Source: Promethearchaeota archaeon
Lineage (GTDB): Archaea; Asgardarchaeota; Lokiarchaeia; Sigyniarchaeales; SOKP01
DNA length: 64,000 nucleotides
Assembly: GCA_030606485.1 (NCBI GenBank)
Contig: JAUWGH010000003.1
Span: 372,001-436,000, forward strand
Direction of reading: 5' to 3'
Shown: piece after piece, positions 6,446 through 14,746 of the stretch
How the letters are laid out: every line of letters begins with the position of its first letter
How positions within the stretch are numbered: the first letter of the stretch is position 1
Translations under genes and position numbers: made by a program
Notes under the pieces: model-generated
Told to the model about the DNA's origin: nothing
Database searches by the model: none
What the model saw: the letters and a program-made list of their open reading frames with translations, nothing else

Positions 6446-6507
6446 TTAGTATCTAATTTCCAAATTTTTTATTATTATACTATTTTTTGGTAAAAATCAA
6501 AAAACCG

Positions 6508-8544
6508 ATGAATCTAAAATTAAATAGTTTCCAGAAAAAGGCAGGAATATTCTATACTCCAGAGTACATTACTGAATTCATGGTAAAAAACGCAATTTTT
6601 GAATATATATTAACATTCTTTGAAAAAAGATATCAGACTATTGATGAATTAATTTTATCAGACAATCTGGATGACTTAAAAAAATTAAACAACATTATTA
6701 TACATTTGAAAATCTTAGACCCAGCATGTGGAGCTGGCATATTTTTATTAAAATCAGGACAAATCTTATTGGAATTAACAAATAAAATTGCAAAAAGATT
6801 AAATCTTAGACAAATGATTTTCAAAAAACGAGTTGATATAATAGAAAAAAATCTTTACGGTGTTGATATATTTGAAGAATCTATTCAAGAATGCAAATCG
6901 CAATTGAAAAAATGGTTGATTTCAAACAATCAACTTAATTTAAATAATTATGGAAATAAAAATATAAATTTTAATCTAAAGGTTGGAAATAGTTTAATTG
7001 GCAGGTTAAACGAAGAAATAAATGGAGAAGATGTATTCAACAAAAATCTTTCAATAGAATGGAAGCCATTCCATTGGAGTAAAGAATTCCCTGAGATAAT
7101 TAAAAACGGAGGATTTGATATCATTTTAGAAAATCCACCCTATATTTTTACCCGTGGTGGAAATTTTTCTACTTTACAGAAAACCTACTTTAGAAATTTC
7201 ATTTCTAAATTAGGATTAATTCAATCACAAAAAGGAAAGCAATTCCAATCGAATAAATTAAATACATATTCTCTATTTATCCTAAGGTCTTTAGAATTAT
7301 TAAAAAAAGGTGCCAAATTAGCGGTATTAATTCCAAATAATTTTCTGCGCAACACAAATCTCGATATTTATAGAGATTACATCCTTAGAAATTATTGCAT
7401 CAATCAAATTGTTGATTTATCTAATAGTGTTTTTCGAAATGTAGTTGCATCTATTATCTGCTTATTTATTGATAAAAAAAAGCCAGATGGGGAATTTAAG
7501 ACGCAAATCATATCTAATATTGAGGATCTTAATGAAAACATTTATACAGAAAATAAAATAGCACAATCCAGCTTTCTGAAAAATAAAAGTTATGTAATTA
7601 ATATACATCTTGATGAAACATCACGTAAAATTTGTAAATATATTGTAAAAAATTCAATAAATTTAGGAGAAATCACTGAATATATTATTGAAGGAATCAT
7701 TTGCTCAAAGAAGAGAGATATCTATGAAACTCGGCTGAAGTCCATAGATATGCCCTTTTTAGAAGGAAAGAACATTGATAGTTATATTACTAAATGGTCT
7801 GGCAAATTTATTAGATATGATAGAGAAAATTTACATAGGGCAAGGTCTAATGAAGTATTTACTAGCAATAAATTAATAATACAAAGAATTAGTGGAGGAA
7901 CTAAGCCTTTAAAAGCAAATTATGACCCCGGGGTCTTTTATACATTTTCATCGATAAATAATATAATTATAAATGAAGAATATCGAAAGAAGATTCCTTT
8001 AAAACTTGTTTTATTAATTTTAAACTCCAATCTAATGAACTGGTATTATGCAATTAATTTCACAAACAAATCAGAACTTACAGTAAATATTTCAAAAACT
8101 TTTTTGGAAGAGATACCCGTTGTTAAACCGAAAAACAAATCTCTTTTTGAAAATATCGCCGATTATTTGATGTTTCTATTTCAGTATTATAATATTAAAA
8201 ATGAAAAGTTAATTTTCACTGATGATATAATCCAATTCTTTTACGTATTAAGCAATGGAATAATCTATGAATTATATCTAAAAGAAAAAATTAAATCAAA
8301 TTTAATAATCGATTTAGAAAACAAATTAACGCCAATTAGATTTGAAGATTGGATTCAAATGAAGTTTAATAATATTATTTTTAACAAAAAATTTCCAGAT
8401 TTTGAAAAAATTGAAAAGGAGAATCTTGAAAAAATAAAAAATGTATATCATAAATTGGTTAAAGATAACACAATTCAGATTAATTTAAAAAAGATTTATA
8501 AAAATAAATGGATAAAGTTTATTGAGAGAGGTGTTAGAAAGTGA
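6508..8544 (+). CDS. Orphan N6-adenine DNA methyltransferase (Eco57I/TaqI-like)
   Basis: About 678 residues from ATG 6508 (a TTG at 6487 is in frame; neither has a clear ribosome site). The N-terminal AGIFYTPEYITEFMV is the SAM-loop entry typical of these enzymes. Motif I is LDPACGAGIFLL, and the catalytic motif IV is NPPY in DIILENPPYIFTRGG. The second half has the TaqI-like specificity region (FLEGKNIDSYITKWSGKFIRYD; ILNSNLMNWYYA). No PD-(D/E)xK nuclease motif is visible and no restriction gene sits nearby, so it is an orphan methyltransferase or a type IIG relic. It precedes the SMC operon by 229 bases. Confidence 0.85.
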   Translation: MNLKLNSFQKKAGIFYTPEYITEFMVKNAIFEYILTFFEKRYQTIDELILSDNLDDLKKLNNIIIHLKILDPACGAGIFLLKSGQILLELTNKIAKRLNLRQMIFKKRVDIIEKNLYGVDIFEESIQECKSQLKKWLISNNQLNLNNYGNKNINFNLKVGNSLIGRLNEEINGEDVFNKNLSIEWKPFHWSKEFPEIIKNGGFDIILENPPYIFTRGGNFSTLQKTYFRNFISKLGLIQSQKGKQFQSNKLNTYSLFILRSLELLKKGAKLAVLIPNNFLRNTNLDIYRDYILRNYCINQIVDLSNSVFRNVVASIICLFIDKKKPDGEFKTQIISNIEDLNENIYTENKIAQSSFLKNKSYVINIHLDETSRKICKYIVKNSINLGEITEYIIEGIICSKKRDIYETRLKSIDMPFLEGKNIDSYITKWSGKFIRYDRENLHRARSNEVFTSNKLIIQRISGGTKPLKANYDPGVFYTFSSINNIIINEEYRKKIPLKLVLLILNSNLMNWYYAINFTNKSELTVNISKTFLEEIPVVKPKNKSLFENIADYLMFLFQYYNIKNEKLIFTDDIIQFFYVLSNGIIYELYLKEKIKSNLIIDLENKLTPIRFEDWIQMKFNNIIFNKKFPDFEKIEKENLEKIKNVYHKLVKDNTIQINLKKIYKNKWIKFIERGVRK

Positions 8545-8773: not shown

Positions 8774-10090
8774 TTGTGGGGAATTATCATAAAAAATTTA
8801 AATATAAATCTGAATAATAAACTGGAATATTTAATAATAAAAAACCCATTGGACTTGCAAATAGAAAGAAAAGATATATTTTATCGCGAATCTTATTCCG
8901 AAATTATTGATTATATAAAATTTTTATTGAGTTATGAGGCTGTATCATCAGAAACTAAAATAAAGAAGATCAAAGGTTCAATTTTAATTGATGCTCCATA
9001 TGGCTCTGATATATTAGGATATATTAAATTGATTGCAAAGACATTCACCTTAAAATTTGTAAAGTTAAATTTTCCCGAGATTAGAAAATCACCTAATGAT
9101 TTTATATTAAATTTTCCTAATATTTTTGATAATTTGGCTAAAATTTATAGAGAAGCTAAAAAAGTAGAGCAAGAAGTTAAAGAAAAAGATAAAACTATAG
9201 AAAGAGCTTTAAAATTTATATTTATTGTTGAAAATCAACAAGAATTATTTCAGAGAACTCAGAAAGATATTCATTTTGATCTATTCGAACACTTATATTA
9301 TGAGTTAAAAAATAAGATGGAAAATATTAATTTTATCGAGAATGGGATTATTTTCATAGGAATTAATCATCAAGAGAATACTTTATGCCAAGCAAGTTTT
9401 AAATTATTTGATTTTTATTTAAAAATTCCAACGATTACTGAAAATGAAAGAATAATTATTTTAGAAAAAATTAGTGAAGAGATATCTGCAAATCAGACTT
9501 TTAATGTGGGTAGAATTGCTTCCTTAACTGAAGGTTGGGAAGTGAGTGATATAAGGGAATTGATTAAAATCGCATACTTACGGAATGTGGCTAAATTAGA
9601 TGATTCTGTCAGCGATATTACAGAATTAACAGAAAAAATAATTGACAGAGGGGAATTTATTCCTTCATATTTGATTTCACTAAATTTTATTCAAAACAAA
9701 TTAGGGACATTTCAAACTTCTATAAATTCCTCAATACATCAATCGATAAATCAAAATAGAAAGTTTAATAGAGAAGTTTCAAAAGAAGAACATATTAAAA
9801 TTCCAGAACTTGAATCTCAATTAAGAACTGAAATAGAAAAGATTAGATCACAAAGAATATCAAATTTCATGGTACAACAATTATATGAGGATGCAGCCTC
9901 AGAAAATTATACAGAGCTTTTAGTTATATTAGATAAGATGAAAAAGAAAGAACCTCTTGAAGAATATGATCGAAAATTATTAGCAGAATATTCTTTTATT
10001 TTAAATGACCCTCCAAATATCGCCTTAATACTGTTAGAAAAGGCAAAAAAACGAATTGATAATATTAAAAAAGCATTTGGGAAGGAATAG
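8774..10090 (+). CDS. Degenerate AAA+ ATPase-like protein of the SMC operon
   Basis: 438 residues starting at TTG 8774, the only usable start before the conserved part. The order of elements follows an AAA+ fold. A P-loop position reads GSILIDAPYGSDILGYIK and lacks the Walker A lysine. A Walker B-like strand reads KFIFIVENQQE, a sensor-1-like strand GIIFIGINHQ, and a sensor-2-like helix SLTEGWEVSDIRELIKIAYL. The C-terminal 130 residues are a charged helical extension. Loss of Walker residues suggests a structural role rather than ATP hydrolysis (inference). Its TAG stop is in the same frame as, and three bases before, the SMC start, so the two are surely co-expressed. Confidence 0.6.
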   Translation: MWGIIIKNLNINLNNKLEYLIIKNPLDLQIERKDIFYRESYSEIIDYIKFLLSYEAVSSETKIKKIKGSILIDAPYGSDILGYIKLIAKTFTLKFVKLNFPEIRKSPNDFILNFPNIFDNLAKIYREAKKVEQEVKEKDKTIERALKFIFIVENQQELFQRTQKDIHFDLFEHLYYELKNKMENINFIENGIIFIGINHQENTLCQASFKLFDFYLKIPTITENERIIILEKISEEISANQTFNVGRIASLTEGWEVSDIRELIKIAYLRNVAKLDDSVSDITELTEKIIDRGEFIPSYLISLNFIQNKLGTFQTSINSSIHQSINQNRKFNREVSKEEHIKIPELESQLRTEIEKIRSQRISNFMVQQLYEDAASENYTELLVILDKMKKKEPLEEYDRKLLAEYSFILNDPPNIALILLEKAKKRIDNIKKAFGKE

Positions 10091-10096
10091 AAAATT
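10080..10096 (+). promoter_or_regulatory. Ribosome binding site deciding an ATT start for the SMC gene
   Basis: GGAAGGA at 10080-10086 lies inside the last codons of the upstream gene and is followed, after seven bases, by ATT at 10094-10096. This is optimal Shine-Dalgarno spacing, and the next codons give S-T-K-T, a normal N-terminus. No ATG, GTG or TTG exists in the frame between the stop at 10088-10090 and position 10391, which is already inside the conserved ATPase head. Confidence 0.55.
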
Positions 10097-13000
10097 TCGA
10101 CAAAAACAATTAGGTCTAGATCATCATCGGACAAATTAAACCAAGAGGTTTACATTAAAGAGATTATATTAGAAAATTTTTTAGCTTTTTCTAGAGATAA
10201 AGCCGAATTTTCCAAAGGATTTACAATTGTAGTTGGTCCTAATTGGTCAGGTAAATCCACAATTTACCAAGGGATAAAGTTTGCTTTAGGTAGCAATGAA
10301 AGGGACGAAAGATATACAAAATGGTCCGATTTTATAAGAACCGGACAAAACCATGCTCTAATCGAACTTTATATTCAGACACCTGAGAATTTGATTGGAA
10401 TACGAAGGACTGTACTTAGAGGAAAAGCTCCTTTTTTTGAAATTAAGCAAAATAATGAAAAAGAATTCGAAAAAATTAATTCCCTTGAAATAAGAGAGCT
10501 TGTAAAATCATTAAATTATAATCCGGATAATCAATTTTCTTTTGTCAGTCAAGGCAAAATTGATGCGCTTAAAGATATGAAACCTGAAGAATTATGCATT
10601 TTCTTAGAGGAAGGAGTGGGCTTAAAAGGGTTAAGACATGAAATTTTAGAGCAAAAAACTCAAGTATTCAATTTACAAGAAAAATTAAAAGCATTAAAAA
10701 CAGAGCAAAATAGTTGGAATTTTGAATTAAAATTATTGGAACCTAAGTTAAAAAGATTAGAAGATAAGCGAATTTTGCTTAAAGACAAAAAAAGCCTAAT
10801 AGATGAGTTATTATGGGCAAATCGAGAAAAAATAGAAAAAGAGATTTATATTCTTGAAGAAAATATTAAGAAAATTGCTATTATAATTAATGATTTACAA
10901 AAGCAATTAGAAGATTTTACAACGCAAATAAATGAAATTACTGAAAAAATTGAAAAAATTGAAAAAAATTCAGAAAAACTTTCTGAGAATATAGGAAAAA
11001 TAAAGGGTAGAATTTCAGAATTAGAGAAAATTATTCAACAGTGGAAGATTAAACAACAAAGGATAAAGGTACGCTTAGAAGAATTAGAACAAAATAAAAA
11101 CAAATTAAAAGGTAAATTAGACAACCATAAGGCTAAAGGAAATAAGATCTCAGAAGAATTAAAACTCACACGCAAAAATATTAAAATACTAGATTCTGCA
11201 ATCTCTAATATTTTAAAAGAACAAAATGAATTATTGGACAAGGTATCTATTCACAAAGATTTTCTTGAGAGATTTAAGAAGACAAAAGCAGAATTAAGTA
11301 AAAAACAAGATGAGCTTATTCAGAATACCCAAAAAATAACAGAAATTAATGATGAAATTGATATAATTTTCGCTGAATTAAGAGATGTAAAGCATCATTT
11401 TGAGCAAAATAAATGGTTTCTTAAAAATAAGGATGAGAATTTACAAGAAAAGTTAATAAATCAGCGTAATGATTTAGATAATGAAATTCATGATTTAAAG
11501 GAACAACTAAGAGAAATAAGAAAGGATCAGGTTAAAAGAGTTAATGCTTATAAAAGATTAAATTATTCCATTAGAGAAAAAAGAGTATTCTTACCTCAAA
11601 ATGTCATAACTTTAAAAGAAGAGATTTACAATAGAAATCTAAATGCAAAAGGTCCAATAATTGAATTATTACAATATAATGATAAATTGGGGTTTGCAAT
11701 TGAATCAGTTTTAGGAAAAAAAGTGTTATTTAGTTTTATTGCAGGCGATTGGAACACATTTATTCTACTAAAAAAATTGAAAGATAGTTATAATGTTTAT
11801 TGCAATATATATATACCAAAGGAAGAAAATATTCGTCAATTTTCAAAATATGAGAAAATTGATGGAGTATTAGGTTATCTCGCAGAATTAATTAAAATTA
11901 AGGGCAATGATGAACATGTAAGGAAATTAATTTATTCTAAAGTGAAAAATTGTCTTGTAGTAGAAGATTTTACTACAGGAACACTTATGCATAAAAATTA
12001 CAAATTTAGAGGTAAATGTGTAACATTAAAAGGCGAGCAAATCATATCCTATGATTATGTGGTTGAAACACCATACTTAAAGAAATTAGAAGGATTATTA
12101 AGTCCTACTAAACAAATGGATCAATTATATCTGTTAGAAATGGAAATAAGTAAATTGAATGATGAAAGAAAGAATTTAGAATCCCTAAAAACTAAAATAG
12201 ATCAAAAATATCGAGAAGTTTCCAAGAAAATTGATGCTTTACCTACTCTTGAATTATTATTCCGGCAAGAACAAAAACTTTTAAGCAAAAAAGATAATCT
12301 CTTTGAAACAAGAAAAAATAAGAACGAATTGAATGATAATATTGAAATGCAAATCGATGATGTGGTAAAAGAAGTGGAAACTTTAAAAAAAGAACAAAAA
12401 CCAGAATTTTTTGAATGGCAGAAGAGTTTAGAAAATATTCCAGACGAATTTGATTTAAAAAACAATGAAAAGAAACATTGGTCAAAAATTAATGATGAAA
12501 AACAGAAATCCTTATCTGAAATTCAAGAAATTATAAATGAAGAAACAGCTGAATTTACAAAAATAAACATTAGTTATAAAACAACCAAAAAAGAGTTTCA
12601 AAGTAGAGATCAAAAGGCATTTGAAGTATTTCAGGAACTAACTGGACTTGAAAATCAAATTAAGGATTTAAAAATTCAGAAAGAAAAGTATGAGTTAGAT
12701 AAAAAGGCTCTTAAGGAAGAAGAAAATAAAATTAGACAAGAAAATCTTGAGTTTAATTTAAATTATGAAAGAAAACAAGACCAATTGAGTTCGCAGCAAA
12801 ATGATCTCCAATCCAAAATTTTAGATTTAGAAAAAGTAAATAAAGAGATTGGTCCAAAAATATTAAGTGAAGAAATAAAAATACGTCCAATTGAAGAAAT
12901 TGAAAAGAGTCTTCTCGAAGTGAATAAAGAATTAATGAAATACGCAGATATTGATGATACTTTAGAAGTAGAAAAAGAGAGAATTATTAAAATACTTAAA

Positions 13001-13549
13001 AAAATTGCTCAAAATCAAGCGCAAATTCAGAGAGACCTTATTGAAGCAGAAGAAACCGAAAAGAATTTAGAAAATACATATTACAAAAAGTTCAATAAAA
13101 TTATCAAAAAACTAGAAGATTTAATTAATAAAAAATTTGAAATATCTGAAATTAAAGCTCAGTGTTCAATTGATTTATCGGGGAAATTTGAAAATTTAGG
13201 CATAAAAATTAAAGCATCTTTATTAAAAGAACAACTACGAGATATAACCGCATTAAGTGGGGGGCAACGCTCTATTATTGCAATTTGTTTAATACTTTCT
13301 TTACAAGAATTTAAATCAAGTAGGATAATTGTATTAGACGAAGCTGAATTATACTTGGATGAAAATAATGCTGAAATCGCCTATAAATTGATAAAGGGCG
13401 CAATTCAGATGAATAAAACACAAATAATAATATTTGTGCCAAAAGCATCTAAATATATTTATTCAATGGCAGATAAACTCATTGGAGTTGCAAGAAATGG
13501 AGCAATAGGACCATCAACGATACTCCAACCTAAGATAATAAAGACTTAA
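10094..13549 (+). CDS. smc: SMC-family chromosome condensation ATPase (probable ATT start)
   Basis: 1151 residues from ATT 10094, the usual SMC length. The N-terminal head has YIKEIILENFLAFSR and Walker A GPNWSGKS (residues 48-55, K54). A first long coiled coil leads to a hinge at about 505-660 (GPIIELLQYNDKLGFAIESV; VTLKGEQIISYDYVVE), without the usual TGG end. The returning coil leads to the C-terminal head with signature LSGGQ (1054-1058) and Walker B IIVLDEAE (D1082, E1083). LSGGQR and DEAELYLD differ from canonical SMC LSGGE and DEVDAALD. Starting at the first ordinary start, TTG 10391, would delete Walker A. Followed after 17 bases by a kleisin-like gene. Confidence 0.88.
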   Translation: MSTKTIRSRSSSDKLNQEVYIKEIILENFLAFSRDKAEFSKGFTIVVGPNWSGKSTIYQGIKFALGSNERDERYTKWSDFIRTGQNHALIELYIQTPENLIGIRRTVLRGKAPFFEIKQNNEKEFEKINSLEIRELVKSLNYNPDNQFSFVSQGKIDALKDMKPEELCIFLEEGVGLKGLRHEILEQKTQVFNLQEKLKALKTEQNSWNFELKLLEPKLKRLEDKRILLKDKKSLIDELLWANREKIEKEIYILEENIKKIAIIINDLQKQLEDFTTQINEITEKIEKIEKNSEKLSENIGKIKGRISELEKIIQQWKIKQQRIKVRLEELEQNKNKLKGKLDNHKAKGNKISEELKLTRKNIKILDSAISNILKEQNELLDKVSIHKDFLERFKKTKAELSKKQDELIQNTQKITEINDEIDIIFAELRDVKHHFEQNKWFLKNKDENLQEKLINQRNDLDNEIHDLKEQLREIRKDQVKRVNAYKRLNYSIREKRVFLPQNVITLKEEIYNRNLNAKGPIIELLQYNDKLGFAIESVLGKKVLFSFIAGDWNTFILLKKLKDSYNVYCNIYIPKEENIRQFSKYEKIDGVLGYLAELIKIKGNDEHVRKLIYSKVKNCLVVEDFTTGTLMHKNYKFRGKCVTLKGEQIISYDYVVETPYLKKLEGLLSPTKQMDQLYLLEMEISKLNDERKNLESLKTKIDQKYREVSKKIDALPTLELLFRQEQKLLSKKDNLFETRKNKNELNDNIEMQIDDVVKEVETLKKEQKPEFFEWQKSLENIPDEFDLKNNEKKHWSKINDEKQKSLSEIQEIINEETAEFTKINISYKTTKKEFQSRDQKAFEVFQELTGLENQIKDLKIQKEKYELDKKALKEEENKIRQENLEFNLNYERKQDQLSSQQNDLQSKILDLEKVNKEIGPKILSEEIKIRPIEEIEKSLLEVNKELMKYADIDDTLEVEKERIIKILKKIAQNQAQIQRDLIEAEETEKNLENTYYKKFNKIIKKLEDLINKKFEISEIKAQCSIDLSGKFENLGIKIKASLLKEQLRDITALSGGQRSIIAICLILSLQEFKSSRIIVLDEAELYLDENNAEIAYKLIKGAIQMNKTQIIIFVPKASKYIYSMADKLIGVARNGAIGPSTILQPKIIKT

Positions 13550-13566
13550 AAGAAATTTGAATTATT

Positions 13567-14238
13567 ATGGAAAAAAATAACTCCTCTACCCCGTCTATTA
13601 TTGAAGAAATTCAAAAAATTTTTGAAACAGTTCGTAGTGGGTCTCTAGATGCTCTAAGTGTAGATTTAAATCCCATTTTTCAAAAATTTAAACGAGCTAT
13701 AAATGCACAAAATCTGAATGAATCATCTTCCGCATTTAGCAAGTTATGTGATATTATTGAAACAAAATTTAACGAATTACAGATGTATTTGGCCCTATTT
13801 GGTCAAGAAAAGAAGTTCTTAACATTTTTAGAATCAAATCCTTCTGATATTGAAGTATTCAGTCTTTTTAAAGGATGTTGGTATAAACCCTATAATTTAA
13901 ATGCATTATCTCTTGATTTTTTAGAGGAGTCTAAAAATTCCCTGGAAAGTAGAATAAGAGAAGGTTATATAATTGAAAATCTTGAAATCCCACTAAAAGA
14001 TGAGAATTTTATATTAGAAATACCTTCAAGTTCATTTCAAAAAACAATTGAAAACTATTTTAATAAAATATATAAAAAATTGCCATGTAATATGGACGAT
14101 CTCTTCGAAGAACTCGAGAGTCAGGAAGAGATATATGAAAAATTTATTATTATTTTACATTTACTTCAAAATGGAAAAATAATGTATCAAAAACAGACAA
14201 ATTTTATTTATATACCAAAAGGTGGAAAAGATGAATGA
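13567..14238 (+). CDS. scpA: ScpA-like kleisin subunit
   Basis: 223 residues with the layout expected of a kleisin: a helical N-terminal part (FQKFKRAINAQNLNESSSAF), a variable acidic middle, and a C-terminal small winged-helix (EEIYEKFIIILHLLQNGKIM, then YIPK). The last part matches the end of ScpA, where FLALLELVK-type helices contact the SMC head. Sequence similarity is weak; the assignment rests on this C-terminus and on position, 17 bases after an SMC gene and overlapping a ScpB-like gene. ScpA bridges the two SMC heads to close the ring (family knowledge). The N-terminal helix that binds the SMC neck is not clearly recognisable. Confidence 0.6.
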   Translation: MEKNNSSTPSIIEEIQKIFETVRSGSLDALSVDLNPIFQKFKRAINAQNLNESSSAFSKLCDIIETKFNELQMYLALFGQEKKFLTFLESNPSDIEVFSLFKGCWYKPYNLNALSLDFLEESKNSLESRIREGYIIENLEIPLKDENFILEIPSSSFQKTIENYFNKIYKKLPCNMDDLFEELESQEEIYEKFIIILHLLQNGKIMYQKQTNFIYIPKGGKDE

Positions 14239-14746
14239 AATATCCTTATTGATGTATTTATTAAGTAAGAAAGACCAATTAGATGAGATGGGCTCAACTA
14301 AAGAAGAAGTCTTAGAAAAATTGCAAATTTCTGGGCGAAATAAAGGATTTATGTTTAAAAAACTAATTATTGAACTTTCTAAATATATTTCTCCCTTAGG
14401 ACTCGAAATTCAATATAATCCGTTAAATACCCATTGGTTCTTAACTTTTAAATCAAGTATGAATGATCTGATTTTAGCAAACCCATTTCAAGATAAACCA
14501 CGATTGGCTGCAACTTTATTTTGTGCAATAATTTTATGCTTAAAAAGTAATGGTATTGCAAAAATAGTTGAATTAAAGAAATTAAGAAATAAAAAAGAAA
14601 TCCGGGACGACCTAAAAGATTTAGAAAATCTAGGTTATATTAAAATTATTAAAAATTATAATGAAATTAATTTAACCCCACTTATTGGATACCAGCTAAA
14701 CCTCGAAAAATTATTTATGAAATTATCATTAAAATTAAATGTTTGA
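14231..14746 (+). CDS. scpB: ScpB-like winged-helix condensin subunit
   Basis: 171 residues from ATG 14231, chosen because AAAGGTGG ends a few bases upstream; a GTG at 14222 is also in frame. It overlaps the kleisin stop by eight bases, a sign of coupled translation. Two winged-helix units are visible. The first is residues about 1-75 (STKEEVLEKLQISGRNKGFM). The second starts near 85 with RLAATLFCAIILCLKSNGIA, followed by KKEIRDDLKDLENLGYIKII, matching the second ScpB wing (AALETLAIIAY..., ...LRTLLERGLI). ScpB dimers bind the ScpA middle and regulate SMC ATP turnover. Identity is inferred from fold pattern plus gene order. Confidence 0.65.
   Translation: MNEISLLMYLLSKKDQLDEMGSTKEEVLEKLQISGRNKGFMFKKLIIELSKYISPLGLEIQYNPLNTHWFLTFKSSMNDLILANPFQDKPRLAATLFCAIILCLKSNGIAKIVELKKLRNKKEIRDDLKDLENLGYIKIIKNYNEINLTPLIGYQLNLEKLFMKLSLKLNV

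Follow-up and report, generated by a model that had tools for sequence, protein, structure and literature searches.

Eukaryotic SMC5/6 consists of Smc5 and Smc6, the Nse4 kleisin, the Nse1/Nse3 kites, Nse2, and Nse5/6, and prokaryotic SMC-ScpAB consists of an SMC, a kleisin, and a kite whose genes lie in that order. In yeast, Nse5/6 holds the Smc5/6 ATPase in check until a suitable DNA is bound (PMC8327961). Archaeal SMC-ScpA has been reported without a kite (PMC7055376), and an archaeal "SMC5/6-related" SMC clade has been named (PMC9389158, after Yoshinaga and Inagaki 2021). The evidence for that clade consisted of SMC sequences only, and PMC9389158 mentions neither operon partners nor an AAA+ subunit.

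The archaeal operon described here resembles eukaryotic SMC5/6 in the side of a Rad50-rooted tree on which its SMC falls, in an SMC5/6-type H-loop, and in having kleisin-like and kite-like partners. However, it encodes one SMC and one kite, none of Nse2, Nse5, and Nse6 is encoded in it, and its AAA+-derived subunit has no counterpart in eukaryotic SMC5/6. It shares the gene set and order of prokaryotic SMC-ScpAB, including the kite missing from the reported archaeal SMC-ScpA, but differs in the clade of its SMC, in SMC scores far below the family cutoffs, and in an extra AAA+ gene. Its SMC and the archaeal "SMC5/6-related" clade are probably the same branch. The product of its first gene has the predicted fold, the same order of modules, and a GWEVSDI region resembling sensor 2 in common with classical AAA proteins (Cdc48/p97, Vps4, FtsH, and Msp1), whereas the Walker A lysine and Walker B acids have been lost, a C-terminal helical domain has been added, and the protein is encoded with an SMC. 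We found no description in the open-access literature searched of an AAA+ subunit with an SMC complex, or of an Asgard SMC5/condensin/kleisin system of such kind. We know of no described SMC complex with an AAA+ subunit; neither SMC complexes nor SMC5/6-related SMCs of archaea are new in themselves, and to our knowledge the AAA+ subunit is the new part. On balance, we favor the reading that the operon encodes a specialized SMC5/6-type complex with an AAA+-derived, noncatalytic regulatory subunit; the part of this explanation that concerns identity is held with high confidence.

A four-gene operon in a probable Asgard archaeon

The window, by which we mean the whole 64,000-nucleotide stretch of DNA that was analyzed (C8:372001-436000), comes from a 3.75-Mb genome with genes for close homologues of actin (E 2e-133), as fits an Asgard archaeon. 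The four tightly linked genes reported in an earlier note on this DNA were all confirmed as open reading frames in their places on the forward strand. They encode an AAA+-fold pseudo-ATPase (gene 1, 8774-10090, 438 amino acids [aa] from a TTG), an SMC assigned to the SMC5/6 branch (gene 2, 10094-13549 in an open frame that reaches upstream to 10091, 1151 aa from a likely ATT start), a kleisin-like protein (gene 3, 13567-14238, 223 aa), and a ScpB/kite-like protein with tandem winged helices (gene 4, 14222-14746, 174 aa). Genes 3 and 4 overlap by 17 bases.

The starts of the first two genes required attention. An alternative start of gene 1, the ATA at 8789, aligns with the ATG of relatives and may be the start used. 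The SMC gene of the earlier note is real, but the TTG at 10391 proposed as its start is too late and cuts the N-terminal head: the Walker A motif, GPNWSGKS, lies in frame upstream of it at 10235-10258. No ATG, GTG, or TTG precedes Walker A in this frame, and the likely start is the ATT at 10094 behind GGAAGGA. A standard start codon before Walker A is also absent from the SMC genes of four relatives (L041, L045, L047, and L057), which likely start at ATT or ATC behind a Shine-Dalgarno sequence. In the window's genus, gene 1 and the SMC gene lie in one frame, separated by a single TAG. An AAA-SMC fusion made by stop-codon read-through was considered and rejected because in most other genera the two genes are in different frames or overlap.

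Gene 1 is a predicted AAA+ protein without ATPase residues

Queried alone against Pfam, gene 1 barely detects AAA (E 0.24, single sequence). A 31-sequence profile of its family matches p97/Cdc48 with an E value of 1e-20, and its AF2 model (mean pLDDT 78.6) retrieved Msp1, FtsH, p97 D2, Vps4, and PAN in Foldseek at ~1e-8. Profile and model both indicate that the fold is AAA+, in agreement with the earlier note, which had described the first gene as AAA+-patterned without the Walker A lysine and had suggested structure prediction as a check.

The degenerate AAA+ module (8951-9643, approximately residues 60 to 290) carries APYGSDIL at the Walker A site instead of GPPGTGKT, the lysine being gone, and IFIVENQQ at Walker B, where the acids are gone; neither of the classical AAA motifs, Walker A GxxGxGK[ST] and Walker B DE, was found in it. 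The Walker A lysine is absent from every sampled relative of gene 1 in families f1 to f4, f8, f10, and f12. The most conserved part of the protein is the C-terminal helical domain (9839-10087, residues 356 to 438), which is the source of most of the recognizable similarity between gene 1 and distant members and is a candidate docking domain. Between congeners, dN/dS in the AAA module (0.20 to 0.25) is much like that in the SMC (0.17 to 0.20), and in the C-terminal helical domain it is 0.03 to 0.07. Gene 1 is not decaying: purifying selection acts on it, and most strongly on its C-terminal domain.

The AAA gene precedes the SMC gene in intact and degenerate versions of the operon

In each of the 52 fetched loci that hold both genes (34 + 18), the AAA gene lies immediately upstream of the SMC gene; these loci were chosen via AAA matches, so the count is not an unbiased rate. 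The earlier note would have been refuted by an operon that in all relatives is the ordinary single SMC locus and lacks the first gene, but relatives do carry this gene. The spacing between the two genes is mostly -30 to +60 bases, and downstream of the SMC gene there are usually kleisin-like and then ScpB/kite-like genes. Loci without these two are accounted for by contig ends, insertions (L129 and L126), and genes too divergent for recognition. Relatives of the kite, sought in an independent query, turned up in 111 of the phylum's 228 genomes and in most of family f1, a lack of match not being equivalent to absence, as the query missed L134 (family f18) despite its AAA-SMC-kite layout. The operon is single copy throughout almost all of f1 and much of the phylum.

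In some families, the AAA protein encoded at this place in the operon retains ATPase motifs: GRPGTGKT and FIDNFD in f22, Walker A sequences GPSGNGKT and GPEGNGKT in f5/f7, and a fully intact GPPGTGKT and FIDEFD in one f18 genome. Since intact Walker A motifs thus occur elsewhere in the phylum in the same operon, the pseudo-ATPase encoded in the window appears to be the derived form. The f18 operon (L134) is given little weight because it is present in 1 of 223 genomes and its SMC forms a long branch. The C-terminal domain is also found in the f22 AAA (iE 1e-4 to 1e-3 in five sequences; hhalign E 5e-6) and is undetectable in the AAAs of f5/f7 and f18. The SMCs of the f5/f7 operons (L120:2900-9323 and L121:4031-10443) group with canonical SMCs, yet have a TP-type H-loop, for which subunit replacement and tree error are possible readings. 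Because the C-terminal domain was not detected in these AAAs and the f5/f7 SMC lies on the canonical side, the f5/f7 and f18 operons may represent a system different from that of the window. In the AAA tree, a single branch separates all SMC-linked AAAs from the remaining AAAs sampled (72/82, not decisive). Loss of the lysine coincides with the window-type SMC clade, a pattern that fits a single loss.

Outside the phylum, the survey covered 10 loci from Nitrososphaerota related to the Thaumarchaeota genome that contains L136, and all 10 have a mini-SMC, a kleisin-like protein, and a kite without a codirectional AAA. The only AAA neighboring such an operon (L158) is on the opposite strand and groups with ordinary AAAs. 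This three-gene operon of the SMC5/6 branch in Nitrososphaerota relatives (L136 and L155 to L164) has matches in 59 of 121 genomes, and its mini-SMC, at ~590 to 700 aa, is too short for a normal hinge and long arms.

An alternative to a dedicated subunit is that gene 1 is a transient loader or remodeler that is no stable subunit, the inactive form working in mixed assemblies with an active AAA such as a Cdc48 homologue or an SMC-linked MoxR-type AAA. The relatives of gene 1 (p97, FtsH, Msp1, and Vps4) are remodelers, Walker A is kept in the f22, f5/f7, and f18 versions, and a MoxR-AAA and VWA pair lies beside the operons of f8, f10, and f12 as well as beside a canonical SMC locus (L040:1-3348; L068, L071, L122, and L124 to L132 for the operons and this locus together). 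The canonical locus is the SMC-ScpB locus at C10 in the genome from which the window comes, and it is flanked by homologues of the pair with 45 to 50% and 30 to 34% identity. However, the constant first position, the tight coupling to the SMC gene, and the near-invariant C-terminal domain fit a dedicated subunit better, and inside the operon there is no conserved gene for an active partner. The earlier note had proposed a loader or a structural adaptor, and either role is possible; we regard a transient loader or remodeler as unlikely, although it is the strongest of the alternatives.

A tree rooted on Rad50 places the SMC on the SMC5/6 side

Beyond Walker A, the SMC has a hinge region (11648-11980, residues 519 to 629) that matches Pfam SMC_hinge below the cutoff (E 0.0022) and, at 13253-13360, the signature LSGGQR and the Walker B sequence VLDEAELYLD, followed by an SMC5/6-type H-loop, FVPKAS. 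The H-loop proline is found in all members of the window's SMC family, as in SMC5/6; the corresponding motif is ITP or LTP in human and yeast SMC5 and SMC6 and SHR or THK in the canonical SMCs of the window's genome. Against TIGR02168 and TIGR02169, the protein scores 187 versus 729 bits and 164 versus 567 bits, respectively, far under both prokaryotic SMC cutoffs.

A profile of the head only, run against PDB, scored canonical SMCs highest and did not separate SMC5/6 from canonical SMCs, and trees were therefore built. These used the heads of human and yeast SMC5 and SMC6, human SMC3, Chaetomium SMC2, and Pyrococcus SMC, with Rad50s as the root; the reference head sequences were taken from or checked against PDB chains. 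In the tree without flagged long branches, rooted on three Rad50s, the window's family, eukaryotic SMC5/6, the f22 SMCs, and the Nitrososphaerota mini-SMCs group together with a support of 99/96, and within this group the window's family is sister to a subclade (100/99) that contains eukaryotic SMC5/6. With an earlier Rad50-rooted set, the window's SMC grouped with SMC5/6 at 94/89. The placement on the SMC5/6 side is thus well supported in the tree, if not beyond doubt. The term "condensin-like," used for the operon in the earlier note, finds no support in an SMC that is placed on this side and scores 187 bits against a cutoff of 729.

The competing interpretation is that the SMC is a divergent member of canonical SMC-ScpAB (condensin) drawn toward SMC5/6 by long-branch attraction. 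It could draw on the PDB scores of the head profile, on the canonical-side SMC of the f5/f7 operons, and on the later tree set, in which an AU test did not reject canonical placement (p 0.11); the same placement was rejected in the earlier set (p 0.008). Against it stand the 99/96 support in a tree with no flagged long branches, the SMC5/6-type H-loop of all members, the scores far under both prokaryotic cutoffs, and the two canonical SMC loci that the genome already has, which together make it improbable.

Those loci encode a 1476-aa SMC with ScpA-like and ScpB-like genes (C2) and a 1195-aa SMC with a ScpB-like gene (C10), each SMC passing at least one prokaryotic SMC cutoff. The earlier note had proposed a search of the genome for a second canonical SMC, and these two loci support its suggestion that the operon could mark a specialized SMC system rather than the housekeeping one. 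The genome holds one SMC5/6-type SMC, and with one such gene per operon, there is no heterodimer of two paralogs. A further 629-aa SMC-like protein (L007:1444-3330, near G000:C10:94301-96121) has a CPIC zinc-hook motif and resembles archaea-specific SMC-related proteins; the Pfam Rad50 zinc-hook model had no match in the window's genome.

Kleisin-like and kite-like partners

The match of gene 3 to the NCBIfam ScpA model is weak (E 0.004) and confined to the C-terminal winged helix (~14035-14211), and ScpA chains were matched at E values of 0.13 to 0.56. Its AF2 model has helices at the N terminus and a winged helix at the C terminus, and a Foldseek search with gene 3 gave no significant match. 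Alignment by hhalign to the single ScpA and ScpB sequences of the window's genome gave no informative match. Gene position and weak similarity suggest, if weakly, that gene 3 is kleisin-like. Gene 4 is a tandem winged-helix protein like ScpB/kite: two members of its family match Pfam SMC_ScpB (best, 1.2e-6), and the Nitrososphaerota kite aligns with an hhalign E value of 2e-7.

A proposed complex with a noncatalytic AAA+-derived subunit

We propose that the product of the operon is a specialized SMC5/6-branch complex of SMC, kleisin, and kite that is distinct from the two canonical SMC systems of the genome. The ring would be an SMC homodimer bridged by the kleisin and kite. Gene 1 would add a fourth subunit that descends from a classical-AAA (Cdc48/Vps4/FtsH-like) ATPase but lacks the residues for ATP binding and hydrolysis; it would serve as a noncatalytic platform whose C-terminal helical domain docks on the SMC heads or neck or on the kleisin. 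By analogy with Nse5/6, the AAA body might control the timing of head engagement with ATP and DNA, a head-gating mechanism that we put forward tentatively. We infer the physical association, stoichiometry, docking site, and head gating of this predicted complex, as well as its involvement in repairing DNA or clearing junctions.

Found in archaea that are close to eukaryotes, a conserved operon combining an AAA+ protein with an SMC5/6-branch SMC offers a testable candidate both for the ancestral SMC5/6 machine and for how accessory subunits gate SMC heads. The same place in the operon is held by AAA versions whose ATPase motifs are intact and by others that have lost them, which amounts to a natural experiment on the contribution of the AAA module. 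A bolder and rather doubtful extension is that SMC5/6-type complexes of the phylum have an AAA+ core subunit that looks active in certain lineages but is a pseudo-ATPase in others, and that some are wired to an island for ubiquitin-like conjugation with a SprT-like protease. In that case, SMC5/6 would have been partnered with ubiquitin-like ligases for DNA repair before there were eukaryotes.

Genes adjoining the operon

Upstream of the operon, 6487-8544 of the window matches type IIG methyltransferase models. Eukaryotic SMC5/6 itself restricts extrachromosomal DNA, and the window's SMC matches the PADLOC models mad3 (E 9.5e-23), LmuB, and JetC, but a Wadjet-, Lamassu-, or MADS-type antiviral or antiplasmid defense system that includes the methyltransferase is very improbable and was rejected on distribution and on missing Wadjet, Lamassu, and MADS partner proteins, since these matches span only parts of the SMC, genes 1, 3, and 4 match no PADLOC defense model, the operon is conserved in single copy in f1 and much of the phylum, unlike mobile defense, and the methyltransferase adjoins it only in the window's genus. 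Many f1 relatives have a small GTPase and two further genes downstream of the operon.

In one relative lineage, f22, the likeness to eukaryotic SMC5/6 extends to flanking RING and E1/E2 genes, which makes an archaeal link between SMC5/6 and ubiquitin-like conjugation possible. At L117:131-3049, L118:8833-12380, and L119:8802-12259, the f22 operon adjoins an M48/SprT-like peptidase-like gene bearing a RING-like zinc finger. In all three loci, an RWD-RING gene with similarity to FANCL_C and a ThiF-type E1 (E ~1e-60) follow, and L118 and L119 have a UQ_con E2 as well (E 1e-33 to 1e-34); L119 is possibly not an independent lineage because its genome is filed in another family and has 9% contamination. 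In an f7 locus (L121:2884-4024), two UFC1-like (E2-type) genes, recognized by weak matches (E 1e-4 and 0.03), lie directly upstream of the AAA gene.
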